This document shows positions 17,331 through 38,833 of a stretch of DNA of 64,000 bases, piece by piece. The DNA lies in contig JAHENF010000001.1 of the NCBI GenBank assembly GCA_024643255.1, forward strand, positions 121,301-185,300. The letters are read 5' to 3'. The notes under the pieces are model-generated. The model was not told where the DNA came from. It did not search any database and worked only from the letters and a program-made list of their open reading frames with translations. Within the stretch, counting starts at the first letter, position 1, and each line of letters starts with the position of its first letter. This DNA is from Ilumatobacteraceae bacterium. Its GTDB lineage: Bacteria; Actinomycetota; Acidimicrobiia; Acidimicrobiales; Ilumatobacteraceae. Made by a program: the position numbers and the translations under genes.

Positions 17331-18530
17331 ATGCAGGACACGACGGATCTCCAGGCGCCTCCCGCCGGACTCCCGATGGCCGGTGGCTTCCCACCGCCGC
17401 CACCGATGCCCCCTGCACACGTCGGCCCACCCAATCTGATCAGCCAGGCCGCACCATCGCTGCCCCAGATGGCGCCGGCGGTGCCACGCCCGGCAGTGGC
17501 TCCCGAGGCCAATCCGTTCGCATCGTCGATGAACGACCACTGGGCGCCGGCGCCCACGGCGGCCCGCCCGAAGAAACGCGGAGCCGCTCGTCGAAGAATC
17601 AGTTGGTTGTTGGTGTTGGCCGTGCTCGGAGGCCTCGCGTACGGCGGAATCATGTACGGCTCGGACCTGATGAAGCTCGCCACCGGCGACGACTCGGTCG
17701 ACGAGCCGGCGGCCCCGCTCGTGTTCCCGTCGTTCTCCACCTCCCCGGTCCCCGTGCGCACCGCGTCGTTCACGATCGAGCGACCAGATGCGTTGCAGGG
17801 CCCGCAGACCTACGAGGTCACGATGGACTTCGAGTCCGGGATCTCGCGTGTGGTCATCGACCGGAACGACGCCCCCGACCTCGAAATCTTGACGCTCTGG
17901 GACGCGGCCTTCATTCGACGCGTCGACGATCCGACGTGGTACCGGGTCGATCGCGGACAGTTCCCGGTCGATTCGGAGCTCGGGGTGGGTCGCTGGGTCC
18001 GGACGCTCGACCAGATCCTGCCTCCGGCCATCAGGCAATCAGCCGTGATCGAACGCGTCACGCAGTCAGCGGTCGGGACCGAGGCCACCACCAGGATGCT
18101 CATCTCGATCGACCCGGCCGTCATCAGCCTCGCCGCCGCTCCCCGACCGGTCCCATCCGATCCAGCCGTCACGGCGGCCCCGGTCGCGGTGACGCCTCCC
18201 GACGCCGCACCAGCACCCGCTCCCGACGCCGCACCAGCACCCGCTCCTGACGCCGTGCCCGCACCCGTCGCACCGGCACCGGCCGCTCCTGCGTTCACGC
18301 TTCCCCCCGGGATGACGCTGCAGCCCGGAACGGACGAGGCGCCGACGCTCACCATGGAACTGTGGATCGACACTGCCGGCATCGTCCGCAAGTCGATCAT
18401 GCCGGTCGAACTCGGTGCAGAGACGATCACGATCACCTCGCTCTCACCCGACCCGTGGCAGCCGATCTTCCCGACCGAGGACATGGTCCAGCCGCTCACG
18501 GCGATGGCCCTGTTCAAGCTCGGCCTCTGA
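17331..18530 (+). CDS. Secreted/membrane-anchored protein with Pro/Ala-rich linker
   Basis: Pro-rich N-terminus, TM segment ISWLLVLAVLGGLAYGGIMYG, extracellular-type domain, PAPAPDAAPAPAPDA linker. Confidence 0.75.
   Translation: MQDTTDLQAPPAGLPMAGGFPPPPPMPPAHVGPPNLISQAAPSLPQMAPAVPRPAVAPEANPFASSMNDHWAPAPTAARPKKRGAARRRISWLLVLAVLGGLAYGGIMYGSDLMKLATGDDSVDEPAAPLVFPSFSTSPVPVRTASFTIERPDALQGPQTYEVTMDFESGISRVVIDRNDAPDLEILTLWDAAFIRRVDDPTWYRVDRGQFPVDSELGVGRWVRTLDQILPPAIRQSAVIERVTQSAVGTEATTRMLISIDPAVISLAAAPRPVPSDPAVTAAPVAVTPPDAAPAPAPDAAPAPAPDAVPAPVAPAPAAPAFTLPPGMTLQPGTDEAPTLTMELWIDTAGIVRKSIMPVELGAETITITSLSPDPWQPIFPTEDMVQPLTAMALFKLGL
18201..18272 (+). repeat. 24-bp tandem repeat (about 3 copies, third degenerate) coding for APAPAPDA-type linker
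   Basis: gacgccgcaccagcacccgctccc / gacgccgcaccagcacccgctcct / gacgccgtgcccgcacccgtcgca. Confidence 0.8.
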
Positions 18531-27468: not shown

Positions 27469-28988
27469 CCGATCAACTTCGCACCAGCCCGAACGACGAC
27501 TTCTTCGACCGCTTCGAGGCGCTCACGTTCGACGATGTCGTCGTGATCCCCGGGTACTCCGAGACCCTGCCCGACGAGGTCGACACCTCGGCGACCTTCG
27601 CCGCCGACATCGAACTCGCCGTGCCGCTGGTGTCGGCGGCGATGGACAAGGTCACCGAAGGTCGCATGGCCGTTGCCATGGCCCGCCACGGGGGCATCGG
27701 CGTCATCCACCGCAACATGTCGATCACCGACCAGGCTGCCGAGGTCCAGAAGGTCAAGCGCTCGCAGTCGGGGATGATCACCGACCCGGTCACTCTGCCG
27801 CCGACGGCGTTGCTGCACGAGGCCGAGGACCTGATGCACCGGTTCAAGTTCTCGGGTGTTCCGATCACCGATCCGAGCGGGCGTCTGGTCGGCATCCTGA
27901 CCAATCGCGACATCAGATTCTGCGAGGGATCCGACTTCGACCGGCCCGTCACCGAGTTCATGACCGCCGAGGGACTCGTCACTGCCGAGGTCGGCACGTC
28001 GCTCGACCAGGCCAAGGCCATCTTGCAGCAGCATCGCATCGAGAAACTCCCGCTGGTCGACGCCGACGGTCATCTCGCCGGGTTGATCACGGTCAAGGAC
28101 ATCCAGAAGCGCCTCGACTTCCCCAACGCCTCGCGCGACTCGCGGGGACGGCTGCGGGCCGCTGCCGCAGTCGGTGTTGGCGCTGACCTGGAAGAACGCG
28201 TCGAAGCGCTCCTCGCAATGGGCGTCGATGCCGTGTCGATCGACACCGCTCACGGGCACTCCGCCAACGTCGTCAAGGCGATCCAGCGGATCAAGGGTTC
28301 GTGGCCGGATCTGCCCGTCACCGCCGGCAACGTGGTCACCGCCGATGGCGTCGAGACGCTCGCCGCCGCGGGTGCCGATGCGATCAAGGTCGGCGTTGGG
28401 GCCGGGTCGATCTGCACCACCCGGGTGGTGTCGGGCGCCGGAATGCCGCAGCTCTCGGCCGTCTGGTTCACGGCGCAGCGGGCCCGTCAACTGGGCGTGC
28501 CGGTGATCGCCGACGGTGGCATCACCTTCTCCGGCGACATCGTGAAGGCGATCGTGGCAGGGGCGTCGACGGTCATGCTCGGCTCACTGTTGGCCGGAAC
28601 CGAGGAGAGCCCCGGCGAGATGGAACTGTTCGAGGGCCGCCGCTACAAGAGCTACCGCGGCATGGGTTCGATGGGAGCGATGACCGGCGACAGTCAGGAC
28701 CGTTATGCGACCGGTCAGTCCTCTGGCGGCAAGACCGCTGTCGGCGCCGGAAGCAACAAACTGGTTCCCGAGGGCATCGAGGGTCGGGTGCCCTACGCCG
28801 GCCCGTTGGGCGACGTCGCCTACCAACTCGTCGGCGGACTGCGCTCCGGCATGGGCTACGCCGGCGCGGCAACACTCGAATCGCTGCGCGGTGCCCACCT
28901 GATGCGCGTCACCACGGCGGGTCGCGAGGAGTCACACCCTCACGACGTCACGATCACCAAGGAAGCCCCGAACTACCAACGCTCCTGA
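27465..28988 (+). CDS. guaB: IMP dehydrogenase
   Basis: [11 protein letters not shown], paired CBS-like region, [49 protein letters not shown]. Confidence 0.96.
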
Positions 28989-29009: not shown

Positions 29010-29059
29010 CCCAGAACCCCAACCCCAAACCCCGACCCCAAACCCCAAACCCCAAACCC
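29010..29059. repeat. C4A2-3/G4T2-3 telomere-like degenerate tandem repeat; minus-strand G-quadruplex potential
   Basis: cccagaaccccaaccccaaaccccgaccccaaaccccaaaccccaaaccc: eight C-tracts, six of them four Cs long. Confidence 0.85.
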
Positions 29060-29071
29060 GAAAAATGGAGG

Positions 29072-29096
29072 GATCTGCCCGCTCAGCGGGCAGATC
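29072..29096. terminator. Strong hairpin (11-bp perfect stem, TCA loop), probable bidirectional terminator
   Basis: GATCTGCCCGC-TCA-GCGGGCAGATC between convergent guaB and the VWA gene, followed by ATTTT on the + strand. Confidence 0.7.
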
Positions 29097-29132
29097 AGCC
29101 CGAATTTTGGGGTGGACGGGAGTGTGAGAGGC

Positions 29133-31581: not shown

Positions 31582-32322
31582 ATGTCCGGGACGTCGTTCG
31601 ATCAAGTCGCCGCGATCTACGACCAGACCCGCGGAGGCGAACGACGAGGCGACCACTTCGCCGATGCGCTCGCGCCGTGGATCGTCGGACCGACCGTGGT
31701 CGAGTTGGGCATCGGCACCGGTGTGATCGCCAAGGGATTGCAGCGTCACGGCATCGACGTCGTCGGATTCGATCTCAGCGACGCAATGATGCGCCAGGCC
31801 CTCGGGCGAGTCGGCTCGCGCGTCGTGGTCGCCGACGTCGACCGGCTCCCGCTCTCCGACGAGTGCGCCGACACCGCCTACTTCGTCTGGGTGCTGCAGC
31901 TGGTCGACGACCCGATCGCCACACTGGAGGAGGCGGCGCGGATCGTGCGTCCAGGAGGGCGGGTGATCGCGATCCTGTCGAACTCCGAATTCGACCCGGC
32001 GGACGAGATCGCGACGATCATCGACGGTCTGGCTCCCCTTCGCGCCGAGCGCCTCGGTCGGAACCAGATCGTGGAGGCGGACCTGAGCAGACTGTCGCTC
32101 GTTCACCATGGCTCGACGCCGTGGGACAGATTTCCGAGCACCGTCGCCGATGAGATCGACCACATCGAGAACCGCATCTACTCGTCGCTCTTCGACGTCG
32201 ACGACGCCACCTGGGCTGCCGTCGTCGAACCGGTCCTGACGCAACTCCGCGCGTTCTCCGACCCGGATCGGCCTCGCGAGCGTCGCAACCGTCATCCCCT
32301 CCTGGTCTGGACCGTCGACTGA
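31582..32322 (+). CDS. Class I SAM-dependent methyltransferase
   Basis: VVELGIGTGVIAKGLQRHGIDVVGFDLSDAMMRQA; ARIVRPGGRVIAIL. Confidence 0.88.
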   Translation: MSGTSFDQVAAIYDQTRGGERRGDHFADALAPWIVGPTVVELGIGTGVIAKGLQRHGIDVVGFDLSDAMMRQALGRVGSRVVVADVDRLPLSDECADTAYFVWVLQLVDDPIATLEEAARIVRPGGRVIAILSNSEFDPADEIATIIDGLAPLRAERLGRNQIVEADLSRLSLVHHGSTPWDRFPSTVADEIDHIENRIYSSLFDVDDATWAAVVEPVLTQLRAFSDPDRPRERRNRHPLLVWTVD

Positions 32323-32351
32323 TCGCGATCGGGGTCTGACCCCAATCGCGA
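32323..32351. repeat. REP-like imperfect palindrome
   Basis: TCGCGATCGGGGT-CTG-ACCCCAATCGCGA (13-bp arms with one mismatch) in the 75-bp intergenic gap. Confidence 0.7.
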
Positions 32352-32397
32352 CGTGTGCACGGATCATGACGGCACCGCAGCACTAGCGTCGGCTCGG

Positions 32398-38098: not shown

Positions 38099-38833
38099 CT
38101 AGATGCCGCAGTCGTCGCCGCCGATGATCGCCGTCACGGTTGCGTCGTCGGTGACCCCGGTGAGGAATCCGCGCAGACTGTCGTTGACGACGAAGAACGG
38201 CGGCGTGAAGTCGTCCTCGGGGAAGATCTGTGCGGCGGGATAGGCAGCGCGCACGTCGACGACGCGCGAACCGATCATCACGCCTCGGCTGGTCTCGAGT
38301 CCGGCGGGAGCCGCACCGATCTCCGCCTGATCGCCGTACGTGTATCCGAAGAAGTGACGCCGACCCTGGACCACCGACGACACGTCGCCGAACAACAAGG
38401 TGAGCACACCCCACGACACCCGGCGGAGTTCGTTCCCCGAGCACAGACCGATCGTGAGCGGGTCGATCCATCCGGTGTCGTTGGTCGGCTGACCGATGTA
38501 CGAATTGAGGTAGGCGATCACACCCTCGGGTTCGGCGCCGAAGCCGGCCGTTCCGATCCCGTCACCGCTCAGCACCAGGGCGGCGATCGCCGGATCGGCG
38601 GCCGTGGTCGAGGGCTGCACGATCGTGGTGGTCGTCGAGGTGGTCGTCGAGCTCGTCGTGGTCGTCGAGGTGGTCGACGTCGTCGAGGTCGTGGGAGGCG
38701 AGGTGGTGGTGGGCAGCAGCGTGAACGGAGTCGTCGAGCCCGTCGAGGAACCGTCCGAGCCGCCACACGCGCCGAGCAGCAGTCCCGCCGCCGCCAACCC
38801 AGCAATCAGTTGCCGATTCATGCTGGACATCAT
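38099..38833 (-). CDS. Putative lipoprotein with Ser/Thr-rich linker
   Basis: Lipobox LLLGAC near N-terminus, then TTTSPPTTSTTSTTSTTTTSSTTTSTTTT linker and a folded domain. Confidence 0.75.
   Translation of the reverse strand: MMSSMNRQLIAGLAAAGLLLGACGGSDGSSTGSTTPFTLLPTTTSPPTTSTTSTTSTTTTSSTTTSTTTTIVQPSTTAADPAIAALVLSGDGIGTAGFGAEPEGVIAYLNSYIGQPTNDTGWIDPLTIGLCSGNELRRVSWGVLTLLFGDVSSVVQGRRHFFGYTYGDQAEIGAAPAGLETSRGVMIGSRVVDVRAAYPAAQIFPEDDFTPPFFVVNDSLRGFLTGVTDDATVTAIIGGDDCGI

Follow-up and report, generated by a model that had tools for sequence, protein, structure and literature searches.

REP-like repeats are usually explained as sequences mobilised by RAYTs, and they are known mainly from Proteobacteria. 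REPs and BIMEs are palindromic repeats of 20-40 bp with stems of 5-13 bp and a one-sided GTAG or CGTC tag, found mostly downstream of genes, between convergent or codirectional ORFs (PMC3733652). REPINs are short replicating palindromic units; in P. fluorescens, 71 bp is among the common distances between REPs (PMC3116915).

Here we describe a palindrome family found by following up a C-rich tract downstream of guaB in an Ilumatobacteraceae genome, within an analysed stretch of 64,000 nucleotides (the window). The family resembles REPs and BIMEs in being multicopy, interspersed, extragenic, palindromic and gene-downstream, with species-specific stems and copies that occur both singly and as dimers. 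It differs from them in measuring 55 bp with about 26 pairable positions, in having fully symmetric tips (CCCGAAAT and ATTTCGGG) with no one-sided tag, in lacking a linked RAYT, and in its outward G-rich micro-repeats and its shared gene-end positions with replaced stems. With REPINs it has in common short palindromic units and doublets at characteristic spacing, but a unit on its own already forms a whole palindrome, doublets are in the minority in every genome but one (G001), and the genome of the window (G000), which has the most copies, yielded no RAYT. Our literature search returned no report of such a palindrome family in this bacterial group.

We consider it probable that the tract represents the expanded C-rich/G-rich edge of a single REP-like interspersed palindrome of Acidimicrobiia, a gene-end hairpin that is homogenised within genomes and has slippage-prone edges. 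If this is true, a RAYT-independent REP-like class in Acidimicrobiia would be a clean example from nature of short palindromes evolving in concert, and would connect hairpins and gene ends with the expansion of G-rich micro-repeats in a way that can be tested.

Results and discussion

The C-rich tract is the edge of a 55-bp palindrome

An earlier note on this DNA had reported a telomere-like tract of eight minus-strand G-runs with 2-4 nt loops, downstream of guaB and between convergent genes. The letters at 29010-29059 match its quotation exactly, with G-run lengths of 3, 4, 4, 4, 4, 4, 4 and 3 and spacers of 2-4 nt, and its placement is confirmed by the guaB stop at 28988 and a CoxE-like gene running from 30572 to 29133 (Table 1). 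The minus strand does carry a quadruplex motif (at least four G-runs of at least three, with short loops), and TRF reads the tract as an imperfect array with periods of 7, 13 and 20. The pattern CCCC-N1-5-CCCC-N1-5-CCCC has 4 overlapping matches in the window, all inside the tract, where shuffles give 0.42 expected and reached four in 0 of 100. Counted across the genome (3.57 Mb, 100 contigs), CCCCAAACCCCAAACCCC at ≤1 mismatch occurs elsewhere only at C58:6102; no second place in the whole genome has a chain of C4-A2-3 matches like that of the tract, which holds the longest C4 run among such flank repeats found there.

The note identified the C4A3 tract correctly and missed what adjoins it: the last three tract bases (29057-29059) are the first three bases of a 55-bp near-palindrome that is dispersed in the genome. 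The tract runs into CCCGAAAAATGG...CCCGAATTTTGGG (29057-29111), just as the shorter G-rich run at C58:6102 directly adjoins the hairpin CCCGAAATTCGGAGC...GCTCCGAATTTGGGG. The near-palindrome is complementary at 20 of 27 opposed positions and folds as RNA at -31.7 kcal/mol (z -5.1), though it is among the most divergent members in this genome.

Table 1 Features at the guaB locus (window coordinates).
Feature	Start	End	Strand	Remarks
guaB (IMP dehydrogenase)	27429	28988	+	3' end 21 bp before tract, 68 bp before palindrome
G-rich micro-repeat (G3-4 T2-3)8	29010	29059	-	Outward-facing; left flank of palindrome
55-bp near-palindrome CCCGAAAAATGGAGGGATCTGCCCGCTCAGCGGGCAGATCAGCCCGAATTTTGGG	29057	29111		CCCGAAA(41)TTTTGGG; member of CCCGAAAT(39)ATTTCGGG family
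Perfect inner hairpin GATCTGCCCGC TCA GCGGGCAGATC	29072	29096		11-bp stem, TCA/TGA loop
Short right flank with G-runs (GTGGACGGGAG...)	29112	29125	+	Unexpanded at window copy
CoxE-like VWA-domain gene	29133	30572	-	Convergent; 3' end 21 bp from palindrome

A stand-alone telomere-like repeat is ruled out, the tract being the edge of a dispersed palindrome. Its likeness to ciliate-type G4T3 telomere repeats lies in the letters of the unit, in this single tract only, whereas the tract is internal, short and imperfect and other copies each have a different unit. It also lies away from any contig end, 150 kb inside a 213-kb contig (C52:150310-150359 of 212941 bases). The telomere analogy of the earlier note is therefore misleading, while its quadruplex motif and its idea of an expanded microsatellite hold up.

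A known RNA family was likewise rejected: Rfam scans returned two tRNAs only in the window and, at element loci, weak microRNA-shape matches only, far under gathering scores.

The palindromes form an interspersed family of fixed size

The family has the tips CCCGAAAT...ATTTCGGG and is almost always exactly 55 bp long. A tip pattern with open distance, allowing a total span of 31-61 bp, matched about two dozen places in G000, about 15 in the sister species G002 and two in G001, a third member of the genus; all three are draft assemblies. Every family copy among these matches is exactly 55 bp, and the single 47-bp match (G002:C405:19060) is unrelated to the family. Of 201 genomes of the bacterial family, 6 (spanning three genera) contain the exact fixed-length 14-base form CCCGAAA(41)TTTCGGG, and its reversed control has 0 matches in those six. 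At ≤3 mismatches we found 73 (G000), 66 (G002) and 26 (G001) places, against 0, 3 and 2 for controls. Because chance accounts for some of these matches (in G001, about a quarter are non-palindromic), we put the copy number at roughly 60, roughly 60 and about 20, respectively. In an unbiased 458-kb sample of G000 that includes the window there are two clear copies, which would suggest a lower total, so the figure of about 60 is approximate.

A covariance model built from aligned copies found the family in 12 of the 201 genomes; across 298 genomes of the order, 14 had matches at E≤1e-5, and weak single matches in further genomes are unconfirmed. Similar elements extend beyond the two sister species to several other genera and families within the order. 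G292, from another family, carries 55-bp copies whose tips are the same but whose stem is new (CCCGAAATTGCGGTGCTGGCGCGCGCTCAGCGCGC...); G339, of the same family as G292, has 51-bp copies with CGAAAT/ATTTCG tips; sizes in some relatives are 49-57 bp.

Carriage by phages was considered and rejected: among 2.9 million viral contigs the exact 16-base pattern matched once, and this match, complementary at 17 of 27 opposed positions (the pattern itself forces 8 of them), was judged to be chance.

G002 also contains a second palindrome family of 59-61 bp (GTTTGTGTCAGCAGAAACCGGTGGCGCACCGGTAAGTGCTGACAC), seen at L230 826-956 (upstream of ftsY) and L239 993-1053; it too forms a doublet, with a spacing of about 71 bp.

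Stems change on both sides and are homogeneous within genomes

Among 46 distinct copies from six genomes, compensatory change is evident in the stem: 17 of 26 pairs have changes on both sides, and the covariation score is 0.329, compared to 0.151 for shuffled and ≤0.119 for slid alignments. The tips (columns 1-14) and the centre pair most strongly, columns 15-20 least; the tips are imposed by the search, and columns 8-14 and the centre are free of that constraint. The stem is specific to the genome: TTCGGAGC... in G000, ATGCCTGGATTCATGCGC... in G002, TTTGCTGTTAATCG... in G001 and ACCGGGGAAAACGTGC... in G018.

Two variants were seen along the way. G002 has a minor 55-bp subfamily with the stem CTTGCGGAAATCG beside the major ATGCCTGGATTC type, for example at L230 2104-2158 (ftsY 3' end). 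At L224 (G099:C131:6931 region), a palindrome and two truncated copies stand in tandem, which suggests local amplification of half elements.

A concatenated protein query was used to find, in G001, G002 and G018, the orthologues of genes adjacent to G000 copies, and element-bearing loci were compared gene by gene. An element stands at the ftsY 3' end in all three genus members. G000 and G002 have elements in common at ilvE, pyrF, guaB and two further boundaries, and G001 and G002 at prs-rplY, at the boundary on the upstream side of prs and at two others. In total, G002 has an element at the counterparts of 5 of 9 loci from G001 and 6 of 31 from G000; the binomial probabilities are about 5e-6 and 5e-4 under an expectation of 3.4% per boundary, itself a rough estimate from copy number. 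At the guaB locus, in G002 a shorter C-rich run lies beside that species' own palindrome at the guaB 3' end, neither element nor tract was found at the syntenic guaB-coxE boundary of G001, and more distant relatives, e.g. L022 and L027, have neither after guaB.

At these shared gene ends the stems are fully different. Identity over the inner 39 bases is 43% at shared sites and 44% for random between-genome pairs, compared to 74% within genomes. Either the shared sites hold ancestral elements rewritten by within-genome copying, or gene ends repeatedly attract or retain elements. Stems may be homogenised inside each genome by copying or conversion between copies, with a putative trans factor, not evidently a RAYT, that would read tips and size; no candidate for the copying enzyme was found. 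The broader reading is an order-wide class in which position, 55-bp size and tips are kept at orthologous gene ends and the stem is rewritten genome-wide in each species by a non-RAYT trans system measuring tips and length; we offer this tentatively, as possible but rather doubtful.

Copies lie mostly at gene ends

Gene orientation around the genus copies was taken from a simple codon-usage gene caller, with doublets counted once and the background drawn from G000 only. The copies are biased to gene ends: 34 are convergent, 38 codirectional and 6 divergent, against a background of 40/143/55 (convergent excess p 5e-6; divergent deficit p 0.003), and the median distance is 24 nt to the flanking stop codon versus 62 nt to a start codon. 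The six copies between divergent genes have no 3' end there and speak against a gene-end role. Judged from these positions and predicted folds, the most likely picture is a bidirectional gene-end hairpin on converging transcripts, homogenised by a putative copying process: the long hairpin would mark 3' ends, where it would terminate or protect the transcripts that arrive from either of two convergent genes, and the element may be kept for this reason.

The same placement could be had from ordinary bidirectional Rho-independent terminators of a high-GC genome, with the C-rich side perhaps also acting, in the guaB transcript, as a rut stretch that loads Rho. Family members do form stable hairpins near stop codons, with folds of -31.7 to -48.2 kcal/mol, and like bidirectional terminators they sit in excess between convergent genes and have short A/T tips. 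However, a fixed size of 55 bp, tips conserved across several families and homogeneous stems within a genome would be superfluous for terminators, and the other intergenic hairpins of G000 are without this form. The U-run also looks poor: most element tips have no real one, and the window copy has one minus-strand terminator site in a region with no excess over shuffles (4 sites versus 3.5 by chance). Both observations tell equally against the proposed gene-end role. We regard plain terminators as an unlikely account of the family.

Doublets have characteristic spacings

Two copies are present at 8 of 9 G001 loci, nearly always 72 bp apart, and doublets in G002, G099, G155 and G074 are spaced by 61, 71-74 or 82-83 bp; together the five genomes yielded 18 doublets, whose stems and linkers differ. 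A phase test at 10.5 bp gave R=0.92 (p about 0.007 with distinct values only). The spacings, one helical turn apart, are suggestive of phasing at the level of DNA, in cases that are non-independent.

Such phasing, together with the conserved tips and size, might reflect a DNA-level protein site, for an architectural protein or for gyrase-like or condensin-like loading, with doublets of about 61, 72 and 82 bp as side-by-side binding. Single copies nevertheless predominate, doublets within one genome are not independent of each other, and the stem varies across species, so a binding protein would read only tips, centre and shape. This explanation seems about as improbable as plain terminators.

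RAYT-like genes do not track the palindromes

Mobilisation in trans by a RAYT (Y1 tyrosine transposase), as for REP/REPIN elements, would fit palindromes that are interspersed, extragenic, species-specific and sometimes paired, and RAYT-like Y1 proteins are present in G001 and G002. However, G000 has the most copies and no detectable Y1 protein, and G014 has several Y1 proteins and zero elements. In G001 and G002 the palindrome that flanks the RAYTs is a different one, built on a GGGGTCAGACCCC core; Y1 searches and a check of the gene flanks found no linked Y1 gene flanked by the 55-bp palindrome. REP tags are also rare near copy ends (GTAG in 1/31, 2/49 and 1/18; CGTC in 2/31, 4/49 and 3/18), and 55 bp exceeds the 20-40 bp of REPs. 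RAYT mobilisation is thus a misfit, and we think it quite improbable.

A different palindrome in the window, CGATCGGGGTCTGACCCCAATCG at 32317-32357, resembles the GGGGTCAGACCCC palindromes beside RAYT-like genes of G001 and G002 (L193, L194), even though no RAYT was seen in G000.

Flanks are G-rich outward, and micro-repeats are private to each locus

To the left of the palindromes the flanks are rich in C and to the right they are rich in G, with a skew difference of 0.88 compared to 0.05 at 137 control intergenic points (p 4e-12). This outward G-richness is strong mainly in G000 and G002, where it fades to nothing within about 80-100 bp, and weak in G099. The hexamer TTCGGG, the element's own tip, occurs outward 0.79 times per G000 copy versus 0.06 in controls, and a canonical G4 motif lies on the outward strand in 15 of 58 G000 flanks versus 3 of 274 controls. 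No target-site duplication of the MITE type was visible by eye in the flanks, which are complementary rather than direct repeats.

Outward G-rich micro-repeats recur beside these palindromes, in line with the idea of an expanded microsatellite, and their units are private to each locus: CCCCAAA in the window, TTGGGAGTCGGG at L154, GTGTTTCGGG at L151 and TTCGGGTTGG at L178. We propose that local tandem duplication starts at the element edge ending in CCC/GGG, where the adjacent hairpin would favour slippage, and that slipped-strand duplication there could yield locus-private micro-repeats such as (CCCCAAA)n. The predicted quadruplex potential of the tract would then be a by-product, because slippage at CCC/GGG edges would grow G-rich micro-repeats; it may have gained a role later. 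A telomere-like or quadruplex switch at guaB, selected as such, could claim the eight G-runs and the run beside the G002 palindrome, but is very improbable, given that the unit is private to each locus, that unit and strand follow the palindrome's edge, and that guaB is followed by no tract in G001 or in more distant relatives.

Other repeats were noted in passing. The window has two short tandem repeats that are probably intragenic, at 18196-18267 (24-bp unit, x3) and 38642-38692 (9-bp unit GGTCGTCGA, x5.7). At L343 (G059:C426:5951 onward), from another family, a GGGGCGC array starts about 11 bp past the palindrome's right edge and is similar in kind to the edge repeats of the 55-bp family.
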